Source: Desulfosudis oleivorans (GTDB taxonomy: Bacteria > Desulfobacterota > Desulfobacteria > Desulfobacterales > SURF-7). Taken from it: a DNA stretch of 64,000 bases. The DNA lies in NCBI GenBank assembly GCA_020723305.1, contig DYJC01000008.1, positions 1-64,000 of the forward strand, written 5' to 3'. Made by a program: the position numbers and the translations under genes. Shown here piece after piece: positions 8,251 to 61,051 of this stretch. Each line of letters begins with the position of its first letter. Position 1 is the stretch's first letter. Under the pieces are notes generated by a model. The model saw only the letters and a list, made by a program, of their open reading frames with translations. It was not told the DNA's origin and made no database searches.

Positions 8251-8272
8251 TTCAAGAAAAGGAGCGAAAGCA

Positions 8273-10871: not shown

Positions 10872-10933
10872 AGAACAGGATCAACCTTTAGGGTACACGT
10901 TAAAAAAAACCGTCTTAATGGAAGGAGATAACC

Positions 10934-13444: not shown

Positions 13445-13547
13445 CGGAACGGATTTTTGCATGCTTTTTTCATGGACAACCTTCAGCCCTGATCTGGAAG
13501 AAGGATCAGGGCTGCAAACCAAAAAATCCAGAGGGGAGATGATACCC

Positions 13548-13904: not shown

Positions 13905-13962
13905 GCAGTGATGTTGACGTAAAAGACACCCTGGACAAGGCAACCCGAAAAAGGAGAAAATT

Positions 13963-14178: not shown

Positions 14179-14252
14179 AATCGGAAGCGCCAAAAAGAAC
14201 TTTTCTTTTAAACCGCCGAAAGCCTTGAACAACTTGATAAAATGGAAACAGA

Positions 14253-16863: not shown

Positions 16864-16864
16864 C

Positions 16865-40633: not shown

Positions 40634-41182
40634 ATGGCAATCAAATATTCGATTCTTGGACTATTACATTATAAGGATATGCACGGGTATCGCATCAAAG
40701 AACATCTGGAGCGAAATTTCGGGCATATGTGGTCTATCAATTACGGACAGATCTATCCCAACCTCAAAATATTATGCGATGACGGATGGATCCGGATGAT
40801 GGATTTCTCACAGAACGGCGAGAAAGGGCCTCCGCGAAAGCTTTATTCCATAACGGAAAAAGGACGGGAAGAGTTTTTGCGCTGGTTGTCCGCCTCACCG
40901 GAGCGCGCCATGATTTTGCGTGATCCGTTTCTCATGCGGTTTGTTTTCTTCGGATTCGGAGACCGGGATAATGCACTGGCTCTCATCGATGCTCAGATCG
41001 ACATTTATGAGAAACAGATTGTTCGCAGAAAAGACAATCAGCGCAGATGGGATGAATTGGGAATGTATGTCCAACTGGTTGCGGATCTGGGTATTACTTT
41101 CAATGAATTGTTCCTCGACTGGCTGAAAAAGGCACGAGCGAGAATCGCAGAAGAGACTCATAAAAAACGGAAGGCATCATGA
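40634..41182 (+). CDS. PadR-family transcriptional regulator
   Basis: A 182-residue PadR regulator. The N-terminal winged helix (IKYSILGLLHYKDMHGYRI, then GQIYPNLKILCDDGWI and the wing PPRKLYSITEKGREEFL) is followed by a helical dimerisation domain. PadR proteins repress by binding dyads and respond to small effectors such as phenolic acids. It leads the GRE operon, overlaps the next gene (ATGA) and probably represses its own promoter at 40556-40607. Confidence 0.9.
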   Translation: MAIKYSILGLLHYKDMHGYRIKEHLERNFGHMWSINYGQIYPNLKILCDDGWIRMMDFSQNGEKGPPRKLYSITEKGREEFLRWLSASPERAMILRDPFLMRFVFFGFGDRDNALALIDAQIDIYEKQIVRRKDNQRRWDELGMYVQLVADLGITFNELFLDWLKKARARIAEETHKKRKAS

Positions 41183-42162
41183 GCAATGCAGGAATTTCCC
41201 TGGTAACAGGTGCGGCGGGATTCATGGGAAGCCATGTCGTGGAATATCTTGCCAAGAAAGGAGTCCGTGTCCGTGCGACCAGCCGGCCCCGCAACGACAC
41301 ATCTTTTTTTGATCGTCTGGGCGTTGAATTTGTACCTGCGGATCTGATGCAGCCTTCCTCTCTGGAGTGTTTGTTCGAAGGTGGCGTAGACCGAATTTTC
41401 CACCTGGGGGCCATCTGCAACTTTTCAACTCCTTATGAAAAATTATATCCGACCAATGTTCTCGGGGTCGACCGGTTGACCGATCTGGCCATACGGAAAA
41501 ATGTGAAATGCTTTATCCATGTAACCTCAACAAGCGTTTATGGTTATGATCAGGGTCAGCCCTTCTCGGAAAACTCGCCTCGTCAGCCCATGGACGATTA
41601 TGCCCGGAGTAAAAGGGATGGTGAAGATATTGTATTTGAAAAAATATCCAGAGGGTTTCGTGGCATCATTGTAAGGCCATGCACCGTTTATGGCCCGCGA
41701 TGCAATGACGGCGCTGGAAAAGTTTTTTCACGGCCCAGTAAAATCAAGGCCATTCCCGGCAGCGGACAGCAAAGACTCTCCAATATACGGGCTGAAGATG
41801 TCGCAGCGGCAGTTGATTTTTTATCCGAGAGGGATGATACCCTGGGCCAGGTATACAACCTCGCAGATGATTCTCATCCAACTGTTTCAGAAGCACTGAA
41901 GCTTGCTGCCGCAACCTTTGGAACATCAATTCCTTCTCTTCGTCTTCCCTTGGGACTGGTGCGGATTGTTGCCCGGATCGAGGGGGCTTTATGCCGGTTC
42001 AACGGCAGAATACCGGAACTGGAGTTCGATGCAGCCAAATACCTGTCTGCCGACTACATCGTTGATAACACAAAAGTAAAGCAAACCGGCTTTCAGTTCC
42101 AATATCCGGATTTTGAGACATCCATGCATCAATTGGGGGATTTGTATCGCCAACAAAAATAA
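41179..42162 (+). CDS. NAD-dependent epimerase/dehydratase (extended SDR)
   Basis: A 327-residue extended short-chain dehydrogenase. The NAD loop is TGAAGFMGSHVVEYL (TGxxGxxG), the catalytic pair is DDYARSKRDGE (YxxxK), and RPCTVYGPRC follows. Members act on nucleotide sugars, hydroxysteroids or flavonoid-type substrates. In this operon a role on the growth substrate or an early intermediate is more likely than a sugar role, which is inference. It overlaps PadR by 4 bp and precedes a classical SDR by 45 bp. Confidence 0.82.
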   Translation: MSNAGISLVTGAAGFMGSHVVEYLAKKGVRVRATSRPRNDTSFFDRLGVEFVPADLMQPSSLECLFEGGVDRIFHLGAICNFSTPYEKLYPTNVLGVDRLTDLAIRKNVKCFIHVTSTSVYGYDQGQPFSENSPRQPMDDYARSKRDGEDIVFEKISRGFRGIIVRPCTVYGPRCNDGAGKVFSRPSKIKAIPGSGQQRLSNIRAEDVAAAVDFLSERDDTLGQVYNLADDSHPTVSEALKLAAATFGTSIPSLRLPLGLVRIVARIEGALCRFNGRIPELEFDAAKYLSADYIVDNTKVKQTGFQFQYPDFETSMHQLGDLYRQQK

Positions 42163-42207: not shown

Positions 42208-43038
42208 ATGGGACAGGTCATTGTCATTACAGGACTGGCAGAGGGAATGGGACGTGAAGTCGCGACCCTGTTGGCAAAATCCGGCGATACGATTGCCGGT
42301 TTTGACATCAGCAAGGAAGGGATCGACAGTCTGACAAAAGAACTGTCTTCCATTGGCTGCCCCTTTCATCTTGAGCCCCTGAATATCAGCGACCGTAAAG
42401 GAATCCTGCAATTCCGTGACACGGTATTGAAAAAATTCGGGTCTGTGGATACCGTGGTTTCCAATGTCGGTATCGGCTTTTTTGGTCCTTTTGAAGAGAT
42501 TGACCTGGAAAAAGCATTACAATGCTTTGAGATCAACGTGATTGGTGCCTCCGCGGTATTCCAGGCATTTATTCCTTTTTTGCGCAAACAGGGGCATGGC
42601 AAACTGGTGGCCATGTCTTCCCTGGTGGGGCGTATTCCCTTTCCCTTTGAATCCATCTACACGGCTTCCAAATTTGCACTTCAGGGATTGGTAGAGGCGA
42701 TTCAATATGAGGTTCGTCCCTTCGGCATCGACGTGGCCCTGGTTGAGCCCGCCCAGGTATCCACCAATTTCGCTTCAAAAATCCATCAACTTCCGCCGGA
42801 AGGATCACCCTATCGTGAACGGGTACGCCGGTTTATCAACCGGGACAACGAACTGATCAAAACAGCAACCACGCCGCAGGTTGCAGCCCGGAAAATCGTC
42901 AGCGTCATTCGCCGGAAAAATCCGAAACTCCACAACCAAGTGGATTTTATGAGCACGTTTTTCCTAGCCCTGAATCGCATCCTGCCCAAGTTCGCCAGGG
43001 ATATGATTCTGATCAACCATATGGATATCCGCGTATAA
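42208..43038 (+). CDS. Short-chain dehydrogenase/reductase
   Basis: A 276-residue classical SDR. ITGLAEGMGREVA is the cofactor loop, NVGIG replaces the usual NNAG, and the catalytic residues lie in SSLVGRIPFPFESIYTASK (Ser, YxxxK). An AGGGGGAG site precedes the ATG and the next gene starts 11 bp later. It is a likely NAD(P)-dependent alcohol/ketone oxidoreductase in the pathway of this operon; the substrate is unknown. Confidence 0.85.
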   Translation: MGQVIVITGLAEGMGREVATLLAKSGDTIAGFDISKEGIDSLTKELSSIGCPFHLEPLNISDRKGILQFRDTVLKKFGSVDTVVSNVGIGFFGPFEEIDLEKALQCFEINVIGASAVFQAFIPFLRKQGHGKLVAMSSLVGRIPFPFESIYTASKFALQGLVEAIQYEVRPFGIDVALVEPAQVSTNFASKIHQLPPEGSPYRERVRRFINRDNELIKTATTPQVAARKIVSVIRRKNPKLHNQVDFMSTFFLALNRILPKFARDMILINHMDIRV

Positions 43039-43048: not shown

Positions 43049-45430
43049 ATGGAAACTGCGACAGCTTCTCCCGCTATGATCGCCGAAACCCGATTGGGAA
43101 GAATCCGGAATCGTATCATCAACGCACCCCAGGAAATCTGCATTGAACGGGCCCGGTATCTTACCCAAAGCATGTCATTGCATTGGGACAAAGATCCACT
43201 CACACGGATGAGTCTCGCCCTGGAATATATTCTATCGAATATCCGTATCATCATCCGTGAAGACGAACGGATCGTGGGATGCCGGACCAGCAAACTCAAA
43301 GGCGCTCCGCTCTTTCCGGAAAATAAAGCACGGTGGATTGAAGGCGATGTCGAAAACTTCGACCTCCGAGTTGTTCAACGTGCGCTTATCACGGAAGCAG
43401 AGAAAAAGGAGGTGTTGCAGGATATCCTGCCCTTCTGGAAGGGTCGTACTGTAGAGGAGCGGTTCGAGGCAATACTGCCCCCGGATATCTCGGCAGACAT
43501 GGACAAGTATATCTTTACGATCATGCTTGAGATTACCTATGGCATCGGCCACTTCACCATGAATCATCCAAAGGTGCTGCGATCCGGCCTTGCAGGAATC
43601 ATCTCTGATACAGAGCAGAGGTTTGACTCGCTTCCTCCGGAAAAAGAGTCATCCAAAACCGGATTGTATTATCAGGCTGTCATCCGCTCCATGCGTGCCG
43701 CGATTCATTTTGCCCATCGCTATGCAGACGAGGCTGAAAGACTGAGTCAAAAAGAAACCGATCCTCAGCGCCGGAATGAACTTACAACCATAGCAAAAAT
43801 TTGCCGGCATGTGCCGGAACACCCTGCCCGGACTTTTCAGGAAGCTGTTCAAAGCCTGTATTTCATCCATCTGATCGCCCAGATCGAATCCGGCGGAAAT
43901 TCCATCTCCTTAGGAAGAATTGATCAGATATTATGGCCGTATTATCAGCGCGATATCGAAACCGGCAACATTGCGCCCGGTGAGGCGGGTGAGCTGGTGT
44001 CTCTGCTGTTTCTGAAGACCAATGAAATCTGGAATGTATTGGAAGAGGCCTATATTCCGGGAGGAGAAGGAACCGAAGGCAAGACCACACAAAACGTAAC
44101 GGTCGGAGGTATCGATATCCACGGGGAAGATGCAACCAATCCTCTGAGCTACATCTGCCTGGATGCTTATGCTGCCATCCGTACGGTGCAACCCAATTTC
44201 GGCGTTCGCATCAGTTCAAAGACGCCGGAATTGTTTTTCATGAAAGCAGCGTCGTACGCAAAGGATGGTGTGCTGCTGCATTTTTTCAATGACGATGCGA
44301 TTGTGCCTTCTCTTATGGAAGCCGGTCATACGGAAGCAGACGCCCGTGATTACGGTGTTGTAGGATGTCTGGAACCCAATGCTCAAGGCAAGAGTTTCGG
44401 TTCCACCTTTGCGGTTCAATTTAGCGGTATCAAATGTCTGGAGCTGGCCCTCAGCAACGGCATCGATAACATATTCGGATATCGTACAGGTCTCGAAACC
44501 GGGGAGCCGGGTTCGTTCCGAAAATTTGAAGATGTCTGGAATGCCTATGATTCCCAGATGACCCATTTTCTCGGACAAATGGTCAAAGGCATACATTGCC
44601 TGGATCAATCCATTGCAGAAATGCTGCCCTCACCGTTTGCATCCGCCATGATTGAAGGGCCGCTGGAAAAAGGGTATGATTTGACTAAAGGGGGAGCTGT
44701 ATATAACGCCACCGGTGTACAGCTCATGGGATTTTCCAATGTTGCTGACAGCCTGTATGCAGTCCGGAAAACGGTCTTTGAAGAAAAAAAAGCCACCATG
44801 GAAGATCTTTCCAGATGGCTCTCGGATGACTGGATGGATGCGGAAGACAAACAGGCTTATTTCCAGCATAAGATTTCAAAATACGGCAATGATTGCGATG
44901 AAGTCGACCAGATGGCCCGACAGGTCATCCACCATTTCTGCGATCGGCTTTCCGTGTTCCGGAATTACCGGGGGGGTGCTTTCTGGCCGGGCATCTTCTC
45001 CGTGGGATTTCACGTATCCATGGGAGCGTTTACCGGTGCAACTCCGGACGGGCGCTTTGCCGGAAATATTCTGGGTAACGGAATCACACCCAGCAACAGT
45101 GCGGCTGTAAGCGGCCCGACCGCCATCATGAACTCGGTTTTAAAGCTGCCTCTGCACCGTGTGTTCAACGGTATGAATCTCAATATGCGGTTTCAGGGAA
45201 AGACAGTCAAGGCAAAAAATTTAATGCAACTTGTGTCTGCTTATTTTGCCAAAGGCGGCTTCCAGGTTCAGTTTAATATGGTGGACAGCCGGATTCTGCG
45301 GGATGCCCAGAAACATCCGGATCAATACCGCGATCTGATCGTGCGGATCAGCGGTTATTCCGGTATTTTTGTAAACTTAAGTGATATTGCCCAGGAAGAG
45401 ATCATCAGCCGGGCGGAATACACATTATAA
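43049..45430 (+). CDS. Glycyl radical enzyme of unassigned specificity (PFL2/glycerol-dehydratase-like)
   Basis: A 793-residue GRE. YGVVGCLEPNAQG gives the thiyl Cys440 and Glu442 (the C-x-E motif of dehydratase-type GREs), and VRISGYSGIF gives the radical Gly769, 24 residues from the end. By eye against glycerol dehydratase, Glu435 and His164 are kept (Glu442; His168 in GIGHFT), but His281 is Asn284 (SGGNSISLGR) and Asp447 falls on a hydrophobic residue near 454. A simple diol dehydratase is therefore doubtful; lyase, decarboxylase or eliminating activity on another substrate is open. No activase gene lies in this operon. AAAGGAGG precedes the ATG. Confidence 0.88.
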   Translation: METATASPAMIAETRLGRIRNRIINAPQEICIERARYLTQSMSLHWDKDPLTRMSLALEYILSNIRIIIREDERIVGCRTSKLKGAPLFPENKARWIEGDVENFDLRVVQRALITEAEKKEVLQDILPFWKGRTVEERFEAILPPDISADMDKYIFTIMLEITYGIGHFTMNHPKVLRSGLAGIISDTEQRFDSLPPEKESSKTGLYYQAVIRSMRAAIHFAHRYADEAERLSQKETDPQRRNELTTIAKICRHVPEHPARTFQEAVQSLYFIHLIAQIESGGNSISLGRIDQILWPYYQRDIETGNIAPGEAGELVSLLFLKTNEIWNVLEEAYIPGGEGTEGKTTQNVTVGGIDIHGEDATNPLSYICLDAYAAIRTVQPNFGVRISSKTPELFFMKAASYAKDGVLLHFFNDDAIVPSLMEAGHTEADARDYGVVGCLEPNAQGKSFGSTFAVQFSGIKCLELALSNGIDNIFGYRTGLETGEPGSFRKFEDVWNAYDSQMTHFLGQMVKGIHCLDQSIAEMLPSPFASAMIEGPLEKGYDLTKGGAVYNATGVQLMGFSNVADSLYAVRKTVFEEKKATMEDLSRWLSDDWMDAEDKQAYFQHKISKYGNDCDEVDQMARQVIHHFCDRLSVFRNYRGGAFWPGIFSVGFHVSMGAFTGATPDGRFAGNILGNGITPSNSAAVSGPTAIMNSVLKLPLHRVFNGMNLNMRFQGKTVKAKNLMQLVSAYFAKGGFQVQFNMVDSRILRDAQKHPDQYRDLIVRISGYSGIFVNLSDIAQEEIISRAEYTL

Positions 45431-45451: not shown

Positions 45452-46387
45452 ATGAGCAAGGTCATGACAAGCAAAGAAGCCGTCTCCCGGTTTATACAAG
45501 ACGGCACTTTCCTTTATATCGGCGGATATGTATGCCGTCCGCCTTTTGCCATCATTCATGAAATCATTCGTCAGCGGAAAAAAGATCTCACCATCACACG
45601 AAGCAATGCAGCAGACGATTTTGATATGCTCATTGGCGCGGGTTTGGTCAAGCGGTTCATCGGTACATTTCTATCCCTTGGGGTATATGGTCTGGGACGA
45701 TGCTATCGCCGCTCTCTGGAAAAAGGGATACCTCATATCGTCGAAGTGGAGGAGTACACCAATCTGTCCCTCCCCATGATGCTCATGGCCGGTGCCATGG
45801 GAATGCCGTTTGTGCCGGTTCGGGACATGCTTGGTTCCGACCTGATGAATGTGAAATCGTTTATGGGGGAAAATAAATACAAGAAAATCGAATCCCCCTT
45901 TGACGGAAGTCCTGTGCTGCTTGTTCCGGCCCTTAAACCGGATGTGGCGATTATCCATGTCCAGCAGGCAGATGAAAATGGGAATGCGCAGATGTGGGGA
46001 ATCGGTGGAGATTGCCAATATGGGGCCAATGCAGCCGCCAAGGTAATTGTCAGTTGCGAGCGCATCGTATCCCGGGAAACCATCGGAAAAGATCCTTCGC
46101 GAACCATCGTTCCGGCCATGAAAGTCGCAGCCGTAGTAGAAGAGCCTTTCGGCTCCCATCCAGGATACACGCCTGGATTCTATGATGTTGATTTTTCGTT
46201 CGGATATATTTACCAGCAGGCCTCGAACACGGTAGAAGGGTTTGAAGCCTTTTTAAAGGAATGGGTTTACGATATTCCGGATCGAAATGTTTATACACAG
46301 CACTATATCCAGCGGTTCGGCTACGGCGCTTTTAAAAAGCTTGCAGCCAAATTCGATTATTCCTATCCGGTCAGTTATGCATATTAA
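45452..46387 (+). CDS. CoA-transferase alpha subunit (GctA/IpdA-like)
   Basis: A 311-residue family I CoA-transferase subunit. Visible features are a glycine-rich N-terminal segment FLYIGGYVCRPPFAI, then PVLLVPALKPDVAIIHVQQAD, typical of glutaconate-type alpha chains. With the beta chain 35 bp downstream it would exchange CoA between a donor such as acetyl- or succinyl-CoA and a pathway acid. IpdAB-type relatives instead cleave rings of steroid intermediates, an alternative that cannot be excluded. It follows the GRE gene by 21 bp. Confidence 0.85.
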   Translation: MSKVMTSKEAVSRFIQDGTFLYIGGYVCRPPFAIIHEIIRQRKKDLTITRSNAADDFDMLIGAGLVKRFIGTFLSLGVYGLGRCYRRSLEKGIPHIVEVEEYTNLSLPMMLMAGAMGMPFVPVRDMLGSDLMNVKSFMGENKYKKIESPFDGSPVLLVPALKPDVAIIHVQQADENGNAQMWGIGGDCQYGANAAAKVIVSCERIVSRETIGKDPSRTIVPAMKVAAVVEEPFGSHPGYTPGFYDVDFSFGYIYQQASNTVEGFEAFLKEWVYDIPDRNVYTQHYIQRFGYGAFKKLAAKFDYSYPVSYAY

Positions 46388-46422: not shown

Positions 46423-47223
46423 ATGACGGAGCATGCAAATGATTATATCAAACCGGAGCTGATGGCTTGCTGCGGTGCAAGGGAAATTCAGGATGGGGAT
46501 GTGGTTATCGTGGGAACGGGTTTTCCCACCATGAGCGCCAATATTGCCAAACATCTTCATGCTTCGGGCGCGGTCATGATGCAGGAATCCGGTGTTATCG
46601 ACGCGCGTCCCAATCGACCCGCCTTATCCGTAGGAGACCCCTGTCTGAATCCTGGGGCCGCCATGATCGGGGGGCTTACCGACATTATGGGCATGTGCCT
46701 TCAGGCCGGCCTGGTGGATGTCGGTTTTTTATCCGGCAGCCAAGTGGACAAGTTCGGCAATATCAATACAACCGTGATCGGTGATTACTCTTGTCCAAAG
46801 AACCGCCTTCCGGGAAGTGGCGGGGCCAATCCCATCGGGTCGCTGGCCAAGCGAACCCTGATCATTGCCCTGCATGACAAACGGCGGCTGGCGGAACGAG
46901 TGGATTTTATAACAACACCTGGATACATCAACGGGCCAAAGGCAAGAGAACAATGGGGGCTGCCATCCAATACAGGTCCTCACTGCATTATCACCAACAA
47001 GGCTGTAATGCATTTTGACAAAGAAACCGGTGAAGCCTACCTGGTGTCTTTTCACCCCGGCAGTTCCATAGAAGAGATAAAGGCACATACACCGTGGGAA
47101 TTAAGGATAAGCAAGGATGTGCATGAAACAGAACCGCCTCGTGATGATGAACTGAAGGTGATTCGCGAAGTACTGGACCCTCACCGGATGATTAAAATTT
47201 ACGAACAGCGGGGATATGTCTGA
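46423..47223 (+). CDS. CoA-transferase beta subunit (GctB-like)
   Basis: A 266-residue beta subunit. MMQESGVID places Glu55 where glutaconate CoA-transferase has its catalytic Glu54, which forms the glutamyl-CoA intermediate. This supports true transferase activity rather than the IpdAB hydrolase mode, where that Glu is absent. GSQVDKFGNINTTVIG and GSGGANPIGS are further family blocks. A strong GGAAGGAGAG ribosome site precedes the ATG. Confidence 0.86.
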   Translation: MTEHANDYIKPELMACCGAREIQDGDVVIVGTGFPTMSANIAKHLHASGAVMMQESGVIDARPNRPALSVGDPCLNPGAAMIGGLTDIMGMCLQAGLVDVGFLSGSQVDKFGNINTTVIGDYSCPKNRLPGSGGANPIGSLAKRTLIIALHDKRRLAERVDFITTPGYINGPKAREQWGLPSNTGPHCIITNKAVMHFDKETGEAYLVSFHPGSSIEEIKAHTPWELRISKDVHETEPPRDDELKVIREVLDPHRMIKIYEQRGYV

Positions 47224-47242
47224 TAACATAACAGGAGGAGTG

Positions 47243-48610
47243 ATGCGACACACGGAAAAACTGGCTGAATTTTGTTCGGAACTGTCCTTTACCGACATCC
47301 CCGAACACGTAGTTCAGAAGGCCAAAATGTGTATTCTGGATTTTGTTGCCAATGTTTACGGATCACTGGAACTGGCAGCAGTAAGACAGGTGATCGACTA
47401 TATCCGGGGAACAGGAAGCGGTGATGCGGCTACTGCATTGGGATGTGGATTTAAAACCAGCCTGCCGCAGGCCGCATTCATCAACGGCACACTGGCGGAG
47501 GCCATCGAGGCCCAGGACGGCGTTCGATTCGGCGGAAATCATCCCGGTGCAGCAGTGATTCCGGCAGCGATATCTGTTGCCGAATCGCTTCATCTGACCG
47601 GAAAGGCACTGATCTCCGCAGTCGTGATCGGATATGAGGCAGCCAATCGCCCGGCGGCTGCCATGCACCCATGGCATACGCTTTCCGGATTTTTACCGAC
47701 CGGTACCTGCGGAACATTTGGAGCCGCTGCCGCAGCCGCTTACTTAAACGGTGCGAATACGGAACAGATGCTGAATGCTCTTGGGAATGCCGGTTACCTT
47801 CTTCCACTCTCCATGGCCGAACACCTCATGAATGGATGCACCATTAAAATTGTTCAAGGAGGCCAGGCTGCCGGTGCCGGCATTATGGCTGCCGGATTGG
47901 CATTAAAAGGATTAAGCGGTTGCCGTGAAGTGCTTGAGGGATCAGCTTTAAAAGGTGGCTTCACTCAGATAACAACACGGGCTGAACCGAAATTCGATAA
48001 AATCACAGACAACATCGGCACCCATTTCACCCTGATGGATGTCTATTTCAAACCATATACAGCATGCCGTCATACCCATGGCGCAGCCCAGGCGGTTTTG
48101 GAACTGATGAACGAGACAAAAATTTCACCTCAGGCCGTGGAACAGGTCGATGTTTTTACTTATGGGATTGCTGAACTGGCTGTCGGCAAGGGGGTTGAAT
48201 CTACAAGCACTTTTGTTTCCGCCCAGTTTTCAATTCCATATGTGGTGGCGGTTTGCATGAGTGATGGAACATTAGGCCCCCGTCAATTGACGGAAAAACG
48301 CATGGCTGACCCGGAACTGATTGCATTGACCCGAAAAGTCAGCGTTCACACGGAGGATGCTTTAAATAAGCGATATCCGGACGTCACGGCCAGCCGGGTT
48401 GAAATTCTTCTAAAAAACGGAAACAGACTTCAACGGCAGATCGACATTCCCAAAGGCGACCCAAGGGACCCTCTTTCGGAAGCGGATCTGACGGATAAAG
48501 TGATCGCCTTTGCCGGTGATCGAGACAAAGATACCCTGGCCAGGCTCTCCCGGTTGATTCTCAATCTGGAAACGGTTTCGGATATAAGAGAAATAACCGC
48601 AATGATTTGA
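47243..48610 (+). CDS. MmgE/PrpD family protein (second copy)
   Basis: A 455-residue MmgE/PrpD protein. It shares the LDFVANVYGS start, HPGAAVIPAAISVAESLHL and AAAAAAYLNGANTEQM with the family, and FKPYTACRHTHGAAQAVLEL in the C-terminal lid. I prefer the ATG at 47243 after AGGAGGAGTG; an in-frame ATG at 47216 overlapping the CoA-transferase stop is an alternative. It may dehydrate, isomerise or decarboxylate a carboxylic intermediate, though the substrate is unknown. It is only distantly related to the copy at 8273. Confidence 0.83.
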   Translation: MRHTEKLAEFCSELSFTDIPEHVVQKAKMCILDFVANVYGSLELAAVRQVIDYIRGTGSGDAATALGCGFKTSLPQAAFINGTLAEAIEAQDGVRFGGNHPGAAVIPAAISVAESLHLTGKALISAVVIGYEAANRPAAAMHPWHTLSGFLPTGTCGTFGAAAAAAYLNGANTEQMLNALGNAGYLLPLSMAEHLMNGCTIKIVQGGQAAGAGIMAAGLALKGLSGCREVLEGSALKGGFTQITTRAEPKFDKITDNIGTHFTLMDVYFKPYTACRHTHGAAQAVLELMNETKISPQAVEQVDVFTYGIAELAVGKGVESTSTFVSAQFSIPYVVAVCMSDGTLGPRQLTEKRMADPELIALTRKVSVHTEDALNKRYPDVTASRVEILLKNGNRLQRQIDIPKGDPRDPLSEADLTDKVIAFAGDRDKDTLARLSRLILNLETVSDIREITAMI

Positions 48611-48632: not shown

Positions 48633-49793
48633 GTGGATTTTTCTTTGAGCAAAGAACAGATCATGCTGATGCAGTCTCTGCGGGATATGGGTAAGCGTGA
48701 AAAATTTCAGGAGCTGGCTGCGCAGATCGATGCCAGTGGTGAATTCCCTCATTATCTGTTGCATAAATACAGTGAGATGGGACTGCTCGGCATGGTGTTG
48801 TCGAAAGAATTCGGCGGTGAAAAAGAGTCTTCTCTTACAGCGATTCTGGCCATAGAAGAGCTGGCCAAATTCAGCCCTATGATCGCAGCCCCGGTTTTTG
48901 AATCCAATGTCGGTCCGGTGCGTGTCATCGACATGTTCGGTACGGAAGACCAGAAGCGTACGATCATACCGGGTGTCTGCCGGGGTGAAAACAGCGTGTC
49001 TGTCTGCATGACCGAGCCGGAGGCTGGATCGGATTTAACATCGCTGTCCACAACTTTGGTGGAAGACAATGACGGATATATACTGAATGGCCGGAAAGTT
49101 TTTATTACCGGAGGAGGAGAAGCCAGCCATTATCTGGTATATGCAAGATTCGGCGAGACCAAGGGCTACAAAGGGATTGGCGCTGTTATTGTTGAAAAGG
49201 GGATGCCTGGATTTACTTTCGGCAAGCAGGAACAATTCATGGGCCTTCGCGGTATGCCTTCCTGTGATCTGTATTTTGATGATGTCCGGATTCCCAGATC
49301 CAATGTGGTAATCCGGAGTGGGGACTTCGGTAACCTCATGCTCACCTTTGATATCGAGCGGTGCGGCAACGCTGCCATGTGTCTGGGGATTGCCGGAGGT
49401 GCGCTCGAAGCGGCAAAGCAATATGCGATGGAGCGGAAAGCGTTCAATCGTCCGATTTGTGAGTTTCAGGGTATTCAGTTTACCCTTGCGGACATGGCCA
49501 TGAAACTGGATGCCGCCCGTCTGCTGGTGTACCGGGCAGCCAGCAATGCCGGCCAGGGCCTGCCATCGATTTATGAAGCATCTATGGCCAAATGTTTTGC
49601 CAATGAAATGGTCAAGGAAGTGACGGACAAAGCCATGCAGGTGTTTGGCGGATATGGATACAGCAAGGAGTTCCCCATCGAACGGATGTTGCGGGACAGC
49701 AGGGCGTGGAGCATTGCCGGTGGTACGCTGCAAATGCTTCGGATCACAATGGCCAGTGTACTATTCGGCAGACGTTTTGATCAGCGCCGGTAA
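48633..49793 (+). CDS. Acyl-CoA dehydrogenase
   Basis: A 386-residue FAD-dependent acyl-CoA dehydrogenase. VCMTEPEAGSDLTSLST is the FAD/substrate signature and QVFGGYGYSKEFPIERMLRD the second. The usual catalytic YEGT near the C-terminus reads IAGGT, as in enzymes of the isovaleryl/long-chain branch, where the base comes from another helix; the base here is not identified. A GTG start follows AGGAGGAC. It would oxidise the CoA ester made by the adjacent transferase, passing electrons to ETF. Confidence 0.87.
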   Translation: MDFSLSKEQIMLMQSLRDMGKREKFQELAAQIDASGEFPHYLLHKYSEMGLLGMVLSKEFGGEKESSLTAILAIEELAKFSPMIAAPVFESNVGPVRVIDMFGTEDQKRTIIPGVCRGENSVSVCMTEPEAGSDLTSLSTTLVEDNDGYILNGRKVFITGGGEASHYLVYARFGETKGYKGIGAVIVEKGMPGFTFGKQEQFMGLRGMPSCDLYFDDVRIPRSNVVIRSGDFGNLMLTFDIERCGNAAMCLGIAGGALEAAKQYAMERKAFNRPICEFQGIQFTLADMAMKLDAARLLVYRAASNAGQGLPSIYEASMAKCFANEMVKEVTDKAMQVFGGYGYSKEFPIERMLRDSRAWSIAGGTLQMLRITMASVLFGRRFDQRR

Positions 49794-49824: not shown

Positions 49825-50265
49825 ATGAGTATTTATTATCGGGATGCTGCGCATCTCTACGAGATTTATGGATATTTCATGGACAAGGTGTTGTCGGACG
49901 AAAAGATTGGACCCAAAATGGCCAAATCGGGCATCATCATCCGTTTTATTTATACGGATCCGGATGCTGAAATCACCATTGACTTCCGAAACAAACCGGA
50001 GAAAGAAGGATACTATGGCAACTTCTACCTTGGCCCCACACCGATAAAAGAGGATGTCTGGTCCAAGCAGAGTGCCGATCATTCGCACCGGTTCTGGCAT
50101 GGATTTGAAAATCCCATTGCCGCTGTTGCCAAAGGAAAGGTAAAGCAGGGCGGCAAGGTGACCGCCATGCTGAAACTGCTGCCGGTGGTCAAACCCACAT
50201 TTCAAAAATTTCCGGAAGTTCTCAGAGAGATGGGCTACAATGATTTGATCGTTACCAAAAGCTAA
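49825..50265 (+). CDS. SCP2-like sterol/lipid-carrier domain protein
   Basis: A 146-residue protein with an SCP2-like layout: an N-terminal helix, then strands ITIDFRNKPEKEGYYGNFYLG, a region SHRFWHGFENPIAAVAKGKVK resembling the ligand-tunnel lid, and a basic C-terminus. SCP2-like proteins bind hydrophobic acyl or sterol ligands. Placed among CoA-linked enzymes, it may carry a hydrophobic intermediate. AAAAGGAGAA precedes the ATG; an open frame upstream overlaps the dehydrogenase and is not used. Family assignment by eye only. Confidence 0.6.
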   Translation: MSIYYRDAAHLYEIYGYFMDKVLSDEKIGPKMAKSGIIIRFIYTDPDAEITIDFRNKPEKEGYYGNFYLGPTPIKEDVWSKQSADHSHRFWHGFENPIAAVAKGKVKQGGKVTAMLKLLPVVKPTFQKFPEVLREMGYNDLIVTKS

Positions 50266-50281
50266 ACAGCTAGGAGTGAAC

Positions 50282-51712
50282 ATGAAAACATACAATTCTG
50301 TTTATATCGATGGGAAATGGGTTAAATCGGACAGCAATGAAACCTTTGCTGTCATCAATCCATGCAACGAATCTGTTGTGGCAACCGTGGCCATGGGGAA
50401 TGCAGTAGACGTTGACAATGCCGTCAAAGCAGCCCGCAAGGCATTTGCTTCCTGGTCGCAGACAACTGTAGTTGAACGAGCGGACATCCTTTCGAAAATA
50501 TCGGATGCGCTGGCAGACCGGCAGGATGAAATCGGGGATACCATCGCACTTGAAATGGGTATGCCGTCAACCTGGGCACGAATGATTCAGGCGGGCCTTC
50601 CGATTTCCACATTTGCCAGTTTTTCGGAAATTGTAAAAGACTATTCTTTTGAATATGCCCAGGGGACAACACAGATCATAAAAGAATCAATCGGGGTATG
50701 CGGATTTATCACCCCCTGGAATTATCCGCTCCATCAGATCGCCGGCAAAGTGGCCCCTGCTTTGGCTGCCGGTTGCACCATGGTTCTCAAGCCAAGCCGA
50801 TTAGCGCCATTGAATGCGTTTATCCTTGCAGAAATTATGGAGCAGGTCGGTGTTCCGCCCGGTGTTTTCAATCTGGTCTGCGGCAGCGGTTCGGTTGTAG
50901 GGAATGCCATTACCACGCATGCCGATGTGGATATGCTGTCACTGACCGGATCGACAGCCTCCGGCATTCGCGTTGCACAGGCCGGAGCTTTGACCATCAA
51001 ACGGGTGACATTGGAGTTAGGCGGAAAATCCGCCAATATCCTTCTGGATGATGCTGATTTTGAATTTGCCGTTCCCGAAGGGGTGAACAACTGTTTTCTC
51101 AATTCCGGGCAGACCTGTTCGTCCTTGACGCGTATGCTGGTTCCTGCGGAACGGCAGTCTGAAGTAATTGAACTGGCCAGAACGGAAGCGGAATCCCTGG
51201 TCATCGGCGATGCATTTGATGATGAGGTGTTTATCGGCCCGCTTGTTGACGCCGGACAACAGCGCTCGGTCAGGGAGTATATCCAAAAAGGTATCCATGA
51301 AGGCGCAACACTGGTTACAGGAGGCCCTGAGCCCGTGGATGGTATGGAAAAAGGCTTTTATGTCAAACCAACCATTTTTGCCGATGTCAGATCTGATATG
51401 ACCATTGCCCGGGAAGAAATTTTCGGACCGGTGCTGTGCATTATGCCCTATCAAACCGAAGCTGAAGCGATTCAAATCGCCAATGACAGTCCATATGGTT
51501 TATCAGGATCGGTCTGGTCTGCTGATCCGGAACGGGCAATTCAGGTTGCCAAACAGATCCGGACCGGTCAGGTGTTCATCAACGGGGCTGGTTTTGATGT
51601 TCACGCGCCTTTTGGCGGATATAAACAATCTGGAAATGGCCGAGAACGCAGCAAATATGGCCTGGAAGAATTTCTGGAAATTAAAGCAATCATGGGGTAT
51701 TATCCGATCTGA
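50282..51712 (+). CDS. NAD(P)-dependent aldehyde dehydrogenase
   Basis: A 476-residue ALDH. TPWNYPLHQIAGKVAPALAA, the general base Glu in LELGGKSANI and the nucleophile Cys279 in NSGQTCSS are intact, as is EEIFGPVL. The family oxidises aldehydes to acids without CoA. In this operon it could oxidise an aldehyde released by the GRE or the SDRs, giving an acid for the CoA-transferase. TAGGAGTGAAC precedes the ATG. It is the last intact gene of the ten-gene operon. Confidence 0.9.
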   Translation: MKTYNSVYIDGKWVKSDSNETFAVINPCNESVVATVAMGNAVDVDNAVKAARKAFASWSQTTVVERADILSKISDALADRQDEIGDTIALEMGMPSTWARMIQAGLPISTFASFSEIVKDYSFEYAQGTTQIIKESIGVCGFITPWNYPLHQIAGKVAPALAAGCTMVLKPSRLAPLNAFILAEIMEQVGVPPGVFNLVCGSGSVVGNAITTHADVDMLSLTGSTASGIRVAQAGALTIKRVTLELGGKSANILLDDADFEFAVPEGVNNCFLNSGQTCSSLTRMLVPAERQSEVIELARTEAESLVIGDAFDDEVFIGPLVDAGQQRSVREYIQKGIHEGATLVTGGPEPVDGMEKGFYVKPTIFADVRSDMTIAREEIFGPVLCIMPYQTEAEAIQIANDSPYGLSGSVWSADPERAIQVAKQIRTGQVFINGAGFDVHAPFGGYKQSGNGRERSKYGLEEFLEIKAIMGYYPI

Positions 51713-56103: not shown

Positions 56104-58206
56104 ATGATTGACCAGACTTTTCGTGTAAAAAATATTGATTGCGCAGCCTGTGCAGCTAAAATTGAGTTGGGGTTAAAAAACTCGGAAGGCGTGGAAGAGG
56201 CTGTGCTGGATTTTGTCAATTTGACACTGCGCGTCAAAGCGATTGATCTCAAGCAGGTGATCGATAAGGTTCGTTCCATCAATCCGGAAGTTGAACTGAC
56301 CCCTAAAACCAGGTTTATGGAAGAAGTAGCAGATGGGGTTATTTCCAGAAATTCAATTGCTGTTCTTTTTCTATCCAGCATTCTTTTTCTGGCTCAGCTT
56401 TTTTCTGAAACGTGGATTTATAAGCAACCATTTGAAAATCTGGAAATCATTATCGTTCTTGCGGCCTATGTTCTGGCCGGCTGGAATGTTCTTCTGAATG
56501 CCGTAAAAACCATACTACGAGGGGACTTCTTTGATGAAAATGTGCTCATGGCTATTGCCACAATCGGGGCGATCCTGATTCATGCCTATTCCGAAGCCAT
56601 CGGAGTTATGATTTTTTTTAAAATCGGAGAACTTCTCCAGCAGGTGGCTGTGTCCCGCTCCCGCCGGTCGATCCGGGGTTTGTTAAATGCCCGGCCGGAT
56701 AAAGCACAGGTACAGACACCCAATGGTTATCTGGAAGTTCATCCCGAGGATGTTTTGGTTGGAGAGATCATACTGGTAAAACCCGGCGATAAGATACCTC
56801 TTGACGGCAAAATCCTTTCCGGAAACTCTCAGATCGATACCTCTGCATTAACCGGTGAGTTCATTCCTGTAAGCAAAAATCCAGGTGATTCGGTCATGGC
56901 CGGTCAGATCAATCAAACCGGGGCATTGACCATCAAGGTCACACGCCCTTTTCACGAGTCTTCCATTGCCAGAATACTGGATCTTGTCGAAAATGCAGCT
57001 GCCAAAAAAGCAAAAACAGAAAAGTTTATCACCACCTTTGCCCGATACTATACGCCAATGGTGGTCATCATCGCTGCCTGCATTGCCTTTATGCCGCCAT
57101 TGTTCATTGAAGGCGCCTCATCTGAAACCTGGATATACCGGGCATTGGTGATACTGGTCATTTCATGCCCCTGTGCACTGGTTGTAAGTATCCCTCTGGG
57201 CTATTTCAGCGGCATCGGGAAAGCCTCCAAAAATGGCATTCTGGTGAAAGGGTCCAATTTTATCGATGCTCTATCTTCCGTCAAAACCGTTGTATTCGAC
57301 AAGACCGGAACCCTGACCAAAGGCGTGTTTGTTGTTCACGATGTGATCACCCTGAATGGATATTCCAGAAAGGAAGTACTCGAGTTTGCAGCAGCGGCGG
57401 AATATCAGTCCACCCATCCCATTGCAACATCCATTTTAGCAGCATATTCCCTTACCGGCGGTGAACTGGAAAGTAATCAGATATCCGGCCATAAAAGCGT
57501 GAATGGAAAAGGGGTAAGTGCCATTTATAAAGGGCATTCGGTTCTTGTAGGAAACGACAGTCTTCTTCATCAGGAAGAAGTCAATCATGACCAGTGCAGC
57601 TTTGACACAACCGTAGCTCAGATTGTCGTGGATGGAAACCTTGCCGGAATTATTTCCATCGGGGATGAAATCCGGCCCGATGCCCAACATACGATCTATA
57701 AACTTCGGGACCAGGGAGTCAAACAGATTGTGATGCTGACCGGCGACAACAAATGCGCTGCCCAGACGGTTTCGATTGAACTCGGACTTGATCAATTGTA
57801 TTCCGATCTTCTACCGGAAGAAAAGGTTGCTGTTTTTGAAAAAATCACTCAGCAGGTTCCGAAAGGCAGCACTACCGCCTTTGTGGGAGATGGGTTGAAC
57901 GATGCCCCAGTTCTTGCCCGCGCAGATGTGGGCATTGCCATGGGTGCGATGGGTTCCGACGCTGCCATCGAAACCGCCGATGTGGTTCTCATGTCCGATT
58001 CACCGTCAAAAGTAGCAGAAGCCATAACTATTGCCAAACAGACCCGGAAAATCGTATGGCAGAACATCTTCCTTGCCCTTACGATAAAAATCGTTTTTAT
58101 CTCTTTCGGCGCCTTTGGCCTGGCATCCATGTGGGAAGCGGTTTTTGCCGACATGGGCACAGCGCTGCTGGCTATACTGAATTCAGCCCGTATTCTACGT
58201 ATGTAG
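56104..58206 (+). CDS. Heavy-metal P1B-type ATPase (Zn/Cd/Pb type)
   Basis: A 700-residue metal pump. An N-terminal HMA domain has NIDCAAC, followed by eight transmembrane helices. The metal-translocating motif is SCPCALV (Cys355-Pro356-Cys357). The phosphorylation site is DKTGTLT (Asp399), the nucleotide domain has STHPIATS (His-Pro motif) and GDGLNDAPVLARADVG follows. The pattern fits ZntA/CadA-like efflux ATPases, though metal choice is not certain by eye. It is co-transcribed with the ArsR-type repressor. Confidence 0.9.
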   Translation: MIDQTFRVKNIDCAACAAKIELGLKNSEGVEEAVLDFVNLTLRVKAIDLKQVIDKVRSINPEVELTPKTRFMEEVADGVISRNSIAVLFLSSILFLAQLFSETWIYKQPFENLEIIIVLAAYVLAGWNVLLNAVKTILRGDFFDENVLMAIATIGAILIHAYSEAIGVMIFFKIGELLQQVAVSRSRRSIRGLLNARPDKAQVQTPNGYLEVHPEDVLVGEIILVKPGDKIPLDGKILSGNSQIDTSALTGEFIPVSKNPGDSVMAGQINQTGALTIKVTRPFHESSIARILDLVENAAAKKAKTEKFITTFARYYTPMVVIIAACIAFMPPLFIEGASSETWIYRALVILVISCPCALVVSIPLGYFSGIGKASKNGILVKGSNFIDALSSVKTVVFDKTGTLTKGVFVVHDVITLNGYSRKEVLEFAAAAEYQSTHPIATSILAAYSLTGGELESNQISGHKSVNGKGVSAIYKGHSVLVGNDSLLHQEEVNHDQCSFDTTVAQIVVDGNLAGIISIGDEIRPDAQHTIYKLRDQGVKQIVMLTGDNKCAAQTVSIELGLDQLYSDLLPEEKVAVFEKITQQVPKGSTTAFVGDGLNDAPVLARADVGIAMGAMGSDAAIETADVVLMSDSPSKVAEAITIAKQTRKIVWQNIFLALTIKIVFISFGAFGLASMWEAVFADMGTALLAILNSARILRM

Positions 58207-58761
58207 GGATTAAATTTTTCCATATTTTTACATGGAGATAGGACTTTATTAGGAGCTATCCAAACTTAATTCCCTCCTTGAGGGGCATAAGCGCTAACTT
58301 AACAATTAACCATTAATTGTTGATTATTGATTATTTTAAAATTTTCGGGTTTCTTGTGAGAGTGTCCTTCCAGCCGCGAAATAAATTTTTATGCCTGTAA
58401 ACTATTCTCAGCTATATTTCCGGTCATACCGGACTTTTGACTCATTTTTCACCGCAAAACAGGACGTAGCCCTTTTCTTTGTCCTTTTTCCAACCGGCTT
58501 TTCCAAGCTTCTCAGACAACACACTACATATCACGTGTAAAAACTGTTGACGCATAATCAATTTTCACATATGGTCTTCCTTAAAAAAAGCAAGGTCTTA
58601 TCCTACTACTATAATATTAAGAGTGAAGTCGTTTAGGGTCTTAAAATCACCTTTTTGGCAGCAAAAAAAATGGTTTTAAGAAAGTTCAATCATTAAAACC
58701 GGTATTCCTCAATTAAAGCAATTATTATCTTAAATGGCTCGTGCGAATAGACACCATTCTG
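58207..58761. other. Intergenic region upstream of the porin-cytochrome genes
   Basis: About 550 bp without a gene. It holds a perfect inverted repeat AACAATTAA (58301-58309) / TTAATTGTT (58313-58321), possibly an operator or the end of the ATPase transcript, and a candidate promoter at 58547-58575. Confidence 0.5.
58547..58575 (+). promoter_or_regulatory. Candidate sigma-70 promoter for the porin-cytochrome operon
   Basis: TTGACG (58547-58552), a 17-bp spacer and TATGGT (58570-58575), about 190 bp upstream of the barrel gene. Imperfect in both boxes, so tentative. Confidence 0.4.
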
Positions 58762-60159
58762 ATGTTGAACAAAAAACGAACAACATACGTCATGATTCAT
58801 TGGCACGGGTTCATCGTAATCGGATGGATCTTGTTATTGCTATTCCAGGGGCTCCTATCGGCAGAAAAACTTCATGCAGCTGATCCCTCATCAGGATGGG
58901 ATGATATCCGGTCTGCCCAGGATACCCTTTCCGGTCATGCACAGTTCCGGTATCGGGTTAAACAAGATCCGGATGAATCAAACACCAACCACTATACGTT
59001 TCAGAGCCTGGATGTTTCCTTTATTCCTTTGGCAAACGATTCGGGTTTTGTATTTTCCGGAGACCTGTACGAAAATGTCGGAGGGCAGGATGAACGGCCG
59101 GAATCTGTCTGGACTACTTATGGTGATGTCCATGGTTTTGTCAACGAAACTTATGTGCAGGTCAACGATCTTTTTTCAACCCTGAGCATCAAGGCGGGCA
59201 GACAGTACATTCCCAATGAGTTGGCCGTTCATCTGGATGGCCTGCATACGCAATACCGATTCCCGGACGGAAAAGGGACGGTCTATCTTTTCGGCGGATA
59301 TGCGGCAGACCCATACGGGGACACGCCCTGGGATTCTTCCAAACAGGTTGGAATCGGAACCCGATACCGCATCATTGATCGAACACAAGCGGGAATCGAA
59401 TACCTTGCCTCACGGGAGGCGCCACCGGATAGTACCGACGAAACATTCCATCAGGCCGCATTATCCCTTGCTCATCACTTTAAAAGCAGCCGGGCCTGGC
59501 TCAGTCTGTCTTCCTTTGATTCCGATGCGGCATCGCTCAAGCTCAATACATCTTTTCTGGAAAGCATCGGCAGCGATTCGGAAATTGGCTTTTCGTATTT
59601 CCACCAGTTTATCGAAATTAAGCGGATGCCCTCTTCCCAGTCCCCTTTTATCAGCCTGCTCGGGCCGGTGAAACCGTATCAACAGGCCGCGATATATGCG
59701 AACAAACAATTTTCCGATCACTCTTTTGGTGTATCCACGGGTCTGGATGTGCGAAATCTTTTAAAAAATGAAAGTGAATCGGAATACAACCATTCCTACC
59801 TACACGGTTATCTTGCTTTTGATCAAACCGATCTGTGGAGCCGGGATCTTCGTCTGACAGTACAAGCCGATTACTGGCGGAATCTGGATGCAGGATCGGA
59901 TAGCAAAACCATGGTAACCGGAGGCGGAGAGATGGAATATGGCTTCAGTTCAAAAACAGCATTCTCCATTGGATCATTCTATTCACTATACACATATGAC
60001 TATTACACGGACCTCCATGAAAAAACCGACGTCTATTCGATATTTTCCAGAATCAAACATCGAATCGGCAAGTTGTTGCAACTCAAAGGTGAATATGAGC
60101 TGGATATATACGATCACAAGGAACATCGTCTGAACCTGACTGCTGATGTACAATTTTAG
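58762..60159 (+). CDS. Outer-membrane beta-barrel protein of a porin-cytochrome module
   Basis: About 465 residues with a signal peptide (GFIVIGWILLLLFQGLLSAEKLHA). The rest is alternating hydrophobic/polar strands with many aromatic girdle residues, such as VYLFGGYAADPYG and GSFYSLYTYDYY, and ends in an aromatic (LTADVQF), as outer-membrane barrels do. Two multihaem cytochrome genes follow directly, as in Geobacter OmbB-OmaB-OmcB and MtrB-type conduits, so it probably sheathes an electron conduit. The start is uncertain: GTG 58741, ATG 58762 and ATG 58792 all lack a strong ribosome site. Confidence 0.72.
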   Translation: MLNKKRTTYVMIHWHGFIVIGWILLLLFQGLLSAEKLHAADPSSGWDDIRSAQDTLSGHAQFRYRVKQDPDESNTNHYTFQSLDVSFIPLANDSGFVFSGDLYENVGGQDERPESVWTTYGDVHGFVNETYVQVNDLFSTLSIKAGRQYIPNELAVHLDGLHTQYRFPDGKGTVYLFGGYAADPYGDTPWDSSKQVGIGTRYRIIDRTQAGIEYLASREAPPDSTDETFHQAALSLAHHFKSSRAWLSLSSFDSDAASLKLNTSFLESIGSDSEIGFSYFHQFIEIKRMPSSQSPFISLLGPVKPYQQAAIYANKQFSDHSFGVSTGLDVRNLLKNESESEYNHSYLHGYLAFDQTDLWSRDLRLTVQADYWRNLDAGSDSKTMVTGGGEMEYGFSSKTAFSIGSFYSLYTYDYYTDLHEKTDVYSIFSRIKHRIGKLLQLKGEYELDIYDHKEHRLNLTADVQF

Positions 60160-60203
60160 CAGTTTTACAGGAATTACTCTATGCAGACAAACCAGGAATA
60201 TCG

Positions 60204-61013
60204 ATGAAATCAAAACTTACGACATTTATCATTCTGATACTGATCTGTTTTTCCTTCTGTTTGGCGGCAGAAGATAGCGACCGGGTTGTTTTTCCTCACA
60301 GCCGTCATGTGGAGGAGCGGGCCTGCACCGATTGCCATAAACCGCATACCAACTCGACGGAACCGGCCCTTCCCGATACTGCCATCTGTTCAGAATGCCA
60401 TGATGATTCACCGGAAAAAAGAGTGAATCCCCGGGGGCGCATAGGAACAGCAAGCTGTTTTATCTTTTCCCATGGAGTCCATCAGAAATCAGAATGTCAG
60501 GTCTGCCATTTGCTCACGGAAAACGATCCGCCCAAAATCCCGGAATATATCGTTTGCATGGAGTGTCATTCTTTAATTGGAAGAAAAACAGGATGCAGTG
60601 ATTGCCACTCAATGCCATTTACCCCGGAGTACCATAAAGGGTTATGGCGGAAATCTCATGGTGACCCGGCAGGAATCGTCTCGGACAACAGGATACATGG
60701 CCGGAATTGTGGTTCGTGTCATCCCGATCCAACCTGCATACGCTGCCATCAATCCATGAAACCACAAAGCCATACCGGATTTTTTCGACTGCGAGGTCAC
60801 GGGTTAGCTGCTGCCGTTGAAACAACATCATGCCGAACCTGTCACCGGGAATCTTTCTGCATCCAGTGTCATCGAGAAACACAGCCCCTGAATCATAGAG
60901 GTGCCTGGTCAAGTACTCATGGATATGCCATTCCCGGAGGGATAACCGGTTCCATTGGGAAATGCGGAGTTTGTCATAAGACAACTTGGTGTCAAGCCTG
61001 TCATAACCGGTAA
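60204..61013 (+). CDS. Periplasmic 11-haem c-type cytochrome
   Basis: A 269-residue exported protein (signal LTTFIILILICFSFCLA) with eleven CXXCH motifs: CTDCH, CSECH, CQVCH, CMECH, CSDCH, CGSCH, CIRCH, CRTCH, CIQCH, CGVCH, CQACH. Many extra His residues (SRHVEE, SHGVHQK, YHKGLW) can serve as distal haem ligands. The density, one haem per 24 residues, suits a wire. It lies between barrel and lipoprotein cytochrome genes, so it is the likely periplasmic partner of a transmembrane conduit. Confidence 0.9.
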   Translation: MKSKLTTFIILILICFSFCLAAEDSDRVVFPHSRHVEERACTDCHKPHTNSTEPALPDTAICSECHDDSPEKRVNPRGRIGTASCFIFSHGVHQKSECQVCHLLTENDPPKIPEYIVCMECHSLIGRKTGCSDCHSMPFTPEYHKGLWRKSHGDPAGIVSDNRIHGRNCGSCHPDPTCIRCHQSMKPQSHTGFFRLRGHGLAAAVETTSCRTCHRESFCIQCHRETQPLNHRGAWSSTHGYAIPGGITGSIGKCGVCHKTTWCQACHNR

Positions 61014-61051
61014 AGAAAACCAATGGCTGGACTGGAGGAACAAGGGAAACG

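Follow-up and report, generated by a model that had tools for sequence, protein, structure and literature searches.

The 64,000-nucleotide stretch analysed here (the window: positions 1 to 64,000 of contig DYJC01000008.1, assembly GCA_020723305.1, Desulfosudis oleivorans) carries on its forward strand a gene for an oxygen-sensitive glycyl radical enzyme (GRE), set between genes for a regulator and two short-chain dehydrogenases/reductases (SDRs) upstream and genes of acyl-CoA metabolism downstream. An AGGAGG sequence resembling a ribosome-binding site lies directly 5' of its start codon. The gene and the codons that bear on its function are the following:

43049-45430, forward strand: GRE of 793 aa, a single open reading frame with ATG at 43049 and stop to 45430
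43550-43552, forward strand: codon of H168
43898-43900, forward strand: codon of N284
44087-44089, forward strand: codon of T347
44366-44368, forward strand: codon of C440, the thiyl Cys of the Cys loop
44372-44374, forward strand: codon of E442, the Glu of Cys-x-Glu
44408-44410, forward strand: codon of F454
44996-44998, forward strand: codon of F650
45353-45355, forward strand: codon of the radical Gly769, identified from the match to the Gly_radical domain and from the RISGYSG motif, unvarying in 32 aligned sequences

The protein combines PFL-like and Gly_radical domains (PF02901, 641.6 bits; PF01228, 92.7 bits) with a thiyl Cys and a radical Gly, as expected of the GRE superfamily, and C440 and G769 are unvarying in a 32-sequence alignment of its relatives. 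Its best match among PDB sequences is glycerol dehydratase (GD) 1r8w (phmmer, E 1.6e-164, residues 15-792), which is also the best VIA-align match (Z 45.4, rmsd 2.0, 763 residues aligned) of an AF2 model with a mean pLDDT of 85.2 and a pTM of 0.89. NCBIfam assigns it to subfamily level only, through TIGR01774 (682.8 bits against a cut-off of 678.2). The equivalog cut-offs for HypD, CutC, HpsG/HpfG, PRK09983, IAD, HPAD and PFL are all widely missed: 507.1 against 1100 bits for HypD (NF043068), 433.7 against 1050 for CutC (TIGR04394), 457.6 and 531.1 against 1000 for the sulfopropanediol enzymes HpsG/HpfG (NF048011 and NF048009), 292.4 against 1150 for HPAD (NF033715), 390.7 against 1100 for IAD (NF033718), and 507.7 against 1109 for PRK09983 (NF007437, named formate C-acetyltransferase), which we take to be the PflD model.

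Aligned to solved structures by phmmer and by profile, with GD residue numbers read from the HMMER alignment ruler, the protein has H168, C440 and E442 at GD H164, C433 and E435. At GD H281, however, stands N284 (ESGGNSIS in the window protein, ESNGHSIS in GD), and at GD D447 stands F454 (GSTFAV against GWHDSA), the C440-F454 interval being ungapped. The initial annotation, aligned by eye from remembered numbering, had noted Cys440, Glu442 and His168, an Asn284 at the His281 place and a hydrophobic residue near 454 at the Asp447 place. Its numbering proves right, the hydrophobic residue is exactly Phe454, and proper alignment with the solved enzymes restores neither His nor Asp. We take it from the GD structure that H281, D447 and Y640 contact the departing hydroxyl group.

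These residues characterise a whole family. Exact peptide patterns, which miss remoter members, recovered 52 loci with relatives of the GRE from genome contigs. In this broad set of 52 sequences, some of them truncated, H168 and N284 are each present in 51/51, C440 and E442 in 50/50 and F454 in 49/50, the sole exception being a second GRE in locus L012 that is 34% identical and lies outside the family. In a stricter set (at least 600 aa, identical cores removed; 46 distinct proteins in 47 rows, the window protein standing twice), each of the five residues is found in all 46. Given the ungapped interval and the residues fixed across the family, a substitution peculiar to one protein, or a misalignment, is ruled out. 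A non-random panel of 24 other GREs, mostly the best matches of the phylum to the family together with the window genome's own and the second GRE of L012, has N284 in three members and F454 in none; S285, which matches GD S282, is kept in 46/46 distinct family proteins and in 8/24 of the panel.

In a FastTree phylogeny of the 46 distinct proteins and the 24 others, the whole family groups together (support 0.974, stem 0.61). The lowest pairwise identity within it is 59%, and the highest identity of any member to the panel is 41%. Judged from sequence, the family is a separate, new clade. Among 148 genomes from the phylum, ten carry members scoring 1153-1546 bits (three incomplete), the next GRE scoring 657; G116, an eleventh, contributes two fragments (788 and 606 bits). 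The taxa in the titles of member records are Desulfobacterales/Deltaproteobacteria, Syntrophales, Spirochaetes, Dehalococcoidia, SAR324, Fibrobacteres, Lentisphaerae, Ca. Zymogenaceae and others, these taxa being titles of metagenome-assembled genomes (MAGs) in which binning errors are possible. No paper naming the clade or its operon was found in the open-licence PMC literature, which is weak evidence of absence.

What does the loss of His and Asp mean? Three diol dehydratases of solved structure, GD and propanediol dehydratase (PD), figure in the alignments (1r8w, 5i2a and 9rco), and all have His at the H281 site and Asp at the D447 site. The second site is also Asp in PflD and in A. fulgidus 2f3o, an entry named glycyl radical enzyme only, which have Ser and Ala, respectively, at the first. 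The full pair occurs in two of the 24 other GREs (L082 and L097), and Asp at the 454 site in eight; a PDB search with the fragment L083:2281-2900 gave no more than these alignments. The window enzyme resembles GD/PD in identity (35-36%), whole-length fold (Z 44-45), Cys-x-Glu loop and the equivalents of His164 and Ser282, with H168 and E442 matching the residues that hold the substrate hydroxyl in that group. It differs in N284 and F454, found in 46/46 distinct proteins, and no diol pathway is recognised around it. Because Asn and Phe replace the His/Asp pair, a diol dehydratase of GD/PD type is excluded, and to this extent the case made in the initial annotation against diol dehydration stands.

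Dehydration as such is a different matter. The H281 site is occupied by D278 in HypD, T334 in CutC and T312 in IslA (PMC7077986, PMC8473560). At the D447 site an ungapped comparison with the published HypD primer sequences gives Thr (PMC7077986), and a gapped alignment gives Leu in two HypD-like proteins (L089 and L093), so that Asp is found under neither alignment. Since the H281 site is variable and HypD dehydrates without the pair, its loss is not decisive, and the conclusion of the initial annotation is not borne out as worded: as far as the residues go, their replacement argues against the GD/PD mode of holding the departing hydroxyl, not against every dehydration. A dehydratase whose alcohol substrate is larger or unusually bound, with the departing hydroxyl held elsewhere as in HypD, facing the Glu of Cys-x-Glu, seems fairly unlikely. 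The removal of water by HypD with Asp and a non-Asp at the two sites (PMC7077986), the closeness of GD and PD by sequence and fold and the retained S285 all speak for it, whereas the His/Asp pair of all three solved diol dehydratases and the further polar or aromatic groups lost from the pocket (Y640 to F650, Y339 to T347) speak against it. HypD itself shares with the window enzyme the Cys-x-Glu, an active-site His (HypD H160) and the lack of both the GD His and the GD Asp. It differs at D278, which is essential for catalysis and corresponds to N284, so that the window enzyme lacks the catalytic Asp; the D278N variant, bearing the same residue type as N284, is inactive (PMC7077986), a further point against such a dehydratase.

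The pocket is altered beyond the pair. Relative to GD, F333 is replaced by G339, Y339 by T347 in a longer loop, and Y640 by F650. The 333-347 stretch has 15 residues in each family member compared with 12-14 in 24/24 other GREs, and is two residues longer than the loop of 1r8w; T347 immediately precedes a conserved Gln-Asn. F333 is an active-site residue (PMC7077986), and HypD F340 and CutC F395, six residues past the F333 equivalents, contact substrate (PMC7077986, PMC8473560). T347 is not unusual on its own, an aromatic residue occupying that site in only three of the 24 other GREs, but it stands out when compared with the characterised eliminases. The replacement of H281, D447 and Y640 by Asn, Phe and Phe, and of F333 and Y339 by Gly and Thr in a longer loop, leads us to think that the leaving group is probably other than hydroxide and that, on that side, the pocket probably has more room and lower polarity.

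A leaving group other than water would also be expected of a C-N or C-S lyase of the CutC/IslA kind, which would release sulfite, trimethylamine or another amine and have its leaving-group site lined by Phe454, Phe650 and Trp646. CutC, a Cys-x-Glu eliminase that releases a non-water group, and IslA likewise lack His at the H281 site, both having Thr (PMC8473560), and aromatic side chains around the site could favour a quaternary amine. In CutC, however, Asp216 stands at the His168 place and Thr334 at the H281 site (PMC8473560), identity is 26-30% and the gene context is another. Of the IslA residues Gln193, Arg189, Arg678 and Trp374 (PMC8473560), Gln193 corresponds to H168 in the window enzyme. 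A URO-D-family gene lies downstream of the operon in one locus (L046:6418-7617). The URO-D family also contains corrinoid methyltransferases of the methylamine type, and this gene counts in favour of such a lyase. Apart from it, no methylamine- or sulfite-type gene occurs among the annotated neighbours, and the CutC, HpsG and HpfG cut-offs are far from reached. To our knowledge, moreover, some of the groups named in member titles are not known as sulfite reducers. Taken together, we consider a lyase of this kind rather improbable. An ammonia or trimethylamine lyase of sphingoid bases or carnitine was considered on chemistry only and set aside, the operon offering it little support.

C440-x-E442, present in 50/50 sequences, is the sequence mark of the eliminases. 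Cys-x-Glu is insufficient to assign that class, since it occurs in the arylacetate decarboxylases as well, HPAD and IAD keeping the Glu beside the thiyl Cys (PMC6181972). This is a point for a decarboxylase or other C-C lyase, as are the PadR regulators, which are often tied to phenolic acids and which precede most of the operons. Such an enzyme nevertheless seems highly improbable: 7e7l scores 297 bits compared with 552 for GD and a VIA Z of 38.9 compared with 45.4, the HPAD and IAD cut-offs are unmet, and a methylarene product would be ill-suited to CoA activation and dehydrogenation downstream. The initial annotation had proposed a different elimination or bond cleavage; nothing in the present data favours C-C cleavage, the nearest enzymes by sequence and fold being eliminases. 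A GRE of the fumarate-adding kind described for limonene belongs to a different class and was set aside (PMC12583861).

The genes that accompany the GRE in the window are as follows:

40634-41182, forward strand: PadR-family transcriptional regulator (NCBIfam PadR-type models, under cut-off)
41179-42162, forward strand: extended SDR resembling NAD-dependent epimerases/dehydrogenases (EPI); Tyr and Lys of YxxxK in 41/41
42208-43038, forward strand: classical SDR; Tyr and Lys of YxxxK and the three Gly of GxxxGxG in 46/46
45452-46387, forward strand: CoA-transferase subunit A, glutaconate type (PF01144; best PDB match 1poi_A, E 1.4e-55)
46423-47223, forward strand: CoA-transferase subunit B (1poi_B, E 8.2e-54)
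47216-48610, forward strand: MmgE/PrpD-family protein (PF03972, PF19305; 2hp0, E 1.3e-34)
48633-49793, forward strand: acyl-CoA dehydrogenase
49825-50265, forward strand: SCP2-fold (sterol carrier protein 2-like) protein of about 146 aa (AF2 pLDDT 86, Foldseek)
50276-51712, forward strand: NAD(P)-dependent aldehyde dehydrogenase family protein (betaine-aldehyde dehydrogenase model, 476 bits, under cut-off)

Across the 52 loci, tblastn recovers the order PadR, EPI, SDR, GRE, CoA-transferase A and B, MmgE/PrpD, acyl-CoA dehydrogenase and SCP2-fold protein; it was used in place of open reading frame clusters, of which 9, 11, 12, 13, 16 and 32 are antisense shadows of operon genes. Best-segment identities to the window proteins are 50-65% for PadR, 51-68% for EPI, 59-73% for the SDR, 60-75% for the GRE, 75-83% and 73-80% for transferase subunits A and B, 54-66% for PrpD, 57-81% for the acyl-CoA dehydrogenase and 66-81% for the SCP2-fold protein; in L040, which is closely related to the window genome, they reach 89-94% across the operon proteins. 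Gene counts exclude the window and accept a gene on the operon strand anywhere in the locus. Where the contig extends 2.6 kb or more upstream of the GRE (40 loci), SDR and EPI each occur in all 40 and PadR in 36; where it extends 9 kb or more downstream (24 loci), the SCP2-fold gene occurs in 24, the acyl-CoA dehydrogenase in 22 and the CoA-transferase pair in 19. Three of these 24 (L018, L042 and L050), all lacking the transferase, have an acyl-CoA synthetase instead, an exchange that we read as a sign that the pathway activates a carboxylic acid. An aldehyde ferredoxin oxidoreductase (AOR) is present in 11/24 loci, an aldehyde dehydrogenase (ALDH) in 6/24 and either of them in 14/24.

The two transferase subunits align near whole-length with glutaconate CoA-transferase (1poi), and the ESG-motif Glu of that enzyme, presumably the catalytic one, is matched by Glu55 of subunit B (32/32); two subunits and this Glu are what a glutaconate-type CoA-transferase would be predicted to have, although, unlike in the glutaconate CoA-transferase setting, no 2-hydroxyglutarate pathway genes are recognised in the operon. 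In the acyl-CoA dehydrogenase, Gly363 (29/29) replaces the Glu of the YEGT motif, and Glu242 (29/29) appears on another helix, where the two solved enzymes compared have Gly. Isovaleryl- and long-chain acyl-CoA dehydrogenases carry their catalytic Glu on this helix, and by analogy such a placement would fit an acyl chain that is branched or bulky. The product of 49825-50265 is predicted by its model to have the SCP2 fold: its best Foldseek match in the PDB is the SCP2 domain of human MFE-2 (1ikt, E 1.2e-6, TM 0.59 query and 0.73 target), and the 36 matches at E <=0.001 comprise 28 of SCP2 or sterol-carrier type and eight alkylsulfatases or a relative. In the four proteins scanned, Pfam SCP2 stayed short of threshold, with E 0.13 for the L037 copy and no match for the window copy.

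From the observed residues, their conservation, the operon and the SCP2-fold model, we infer the reaction, the order of steps and the substrate class. We favour, at about an even chance, a Cys-x-Glu glycyl radical eliminase of a new clade whose carbonyl product would then be oxidised, activated with CoA and dehydrogenated, with ether-type C-O cleavage as a guess. An activase would generate the Gly769 radical, which would pass to Cys440; the Cys440 thiyl would take a hydrogen from an alcohol carbon whose hydroxyl is bound by the two retained residues, E442 and H168; and the group on the adjacent carbon would depart by beta-elimination, leaving an aldehyde or ketone. In line with this notion, the Cys-x-Glu Glu of known eliminases has been proposed to aid ketyl radical formation (PMC7077986). 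The ketyl-radical half of the active site would thus be intact and its leaving-group half rebuilt. AOR or ALDH would oxidise the carbonyl product, and the acid would be activated by the CoA-transferase or an acyl-CoA synthetase and dehydrogenated to the enoyl-CoA by the acyl-CoA dehydrogenase, while the SDRs may interconvert alcohol and ketone at an earlier or later stage, and a hydrophobic intermediate may be carried by the SCP2-fold protein.

Our best guess is that the leaving side is bulky and weakly polar, for example an ether C-O bond. YbiW/PflD (8id7, 8yjo), which share the GRE fold, act on anhydrohexitol phosphates and set a precedent for C-O-C cleavage by a GRE (PMC12441222), the reaction type guessed here; in an apolar pocket such cleavage may need little acid help, and it would give the SCP2-fold carrier a use. 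These enzymes differ in identity (30-32%) and in their sugar-phosphate substrate. A more specific version, a radical ether lyase acting on a glycerol ether (the core of archaeal or bacterial ether lipids) or a related 2-alkoxy or 2-aryloxy alcohol, is decidedly improbable as it stands. The hydrogen would be taken from CH2OH and the adjacent alkoxy group expelled, and the resulting alkoxy-aldehyde would be oxidised, activated with CoA and dehydrogenated; the second ether bond would collapse as a hemiacetal, the SCP2-fold protein carrying the hydrophobic part. If true, such a lyase would provide an oxygen-independent route for ether-lipid breakdown in sediments. A lignin beta-aryl ether lyase was set aside on a weak argument, the marine or hydrothermal habitats suggested by some record names. 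Resemblances to SdmB, a bile-salt transporter of the major facilitator superfamily (MFS) and CasG fall under their cut-offs, and a steroid route was kept as a lead only.

Several observations weigh against the eliminase reading and its ether version. PflD has Ser at the first site but keeps Asp at the D447 site, therefore F454 is no mark of ether cleavage. The GRE model falls below a pLDDT of 50 at 161-167, 333-344 and 660-677, so that the altered loop is not confidently placed and the residues preceding H168 are poorly modelled; the ten-residue blocks with N284 and F454 average 77, that of H168 only 49. AOR and ALDH are both missing from 10/24 well-covered loci, and transferase and synthetase from 2/24 (L025 and L056), and therefore the downstream scheme does not hold for every locus. 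No obvious role in this scheme falls to the MmgE/PrpD protein, whose closest solved structure is iminodisuccinate epimerase (2hp0). The presence of MFS or GltS-like transporters at some loci suggests that the substrate is soluble and not a lipid. Finally, none of the record titles of the 52 loci names a cultured strain.

A GRE clade of at least 59% identity with a near-fixed gene set across MAGs of several phyla points to a widespread anaerobic catabolic route. New GRE reactions have repeatedly explained the fates of compounds in anoxic habitats. The unvarying residues that alter the pocket are ready targets for mutagenesis, and the operon supplies partner enzymes with testable substrates.

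No activase gene adjoins the window GRE. One is linked to the operon in four of the 52 loci (L014, L021, L022 and L041; NCBIfam was run for the L022 copy only). The window genome has seven PFL-like GREs, the window GRE among them, and five strong activase matches, four of which adjoin other GREs; three of the seven, the window GRE included, have no adjoining activase match. The fifth activase (L109, C4:68536-69366), whose contig gives no PFL-like GRE match, is a candidate to serve the window GRE in trans.

Other features of these loci were noted in passing. The second GRE of L012 (L012:3134-7000) lies just upstream of the operon, has Asn at both the 284 and 454 sites and has enoyl-CoA hydratase and SDR genes nearby. 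In L020, a short contig, the operon's dehydrogenase gene directly follows the GRE, with no transferase or PrpD between. A paraoxonase-like gene (Arylesterase/SGL) occurs in the operon region of five loci (L031:18582-19688, L026, L032, L042 and L043; Pfam for L031 only), hinting at a lactone or ester intermediate. The window holds a second GRE at 10934-13444 with Cys-Leu-Ser instead of Cys-x-Glu; around it, 5526-17662 carries a methylmalonyl-CoA mutase-like gene, MeaB, a further MmgE/PrpD gene, an activase (9597-10619), AAA+, vWA and enoyl-CoA hydratase genes, which we take to resemble a fumarate-adding (alkylsuccinate) cluster, no equivalog cut-off being reached. At 56104-62482 a P-type metal ATPase gene is followed by two multihaem cytochrome c-like genes.

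Remoter relatives of the SCP2-fold protein occur in the window genome at L144 and L145. At L144:4099-7664 (C6) a small SCP2-like protein lies between an AOR and an apparent iron-type alcohol dehydrogenase, so labelled from its sequence start only, an arrangement that echoes the SCP2-AOR pairing of the operon; at L145 the SCP2-like gene lies in an apparent acyl-CoA ligase/dehydrogenase/thiolase cluster, its neighbours likewise named from sequence starts only. An SCP2-like N-terminal domain is found on proteins of 844-867 aa from several genomes of the phylum, at L146:6905-9436, L147, L148 and L151; in L146, the only one run, the remainder matches the alpha and beta parts of a single-chain thiamine pyrophosphate-dependent 2-oxoacid dehydrogenase E1, an odd fusion.

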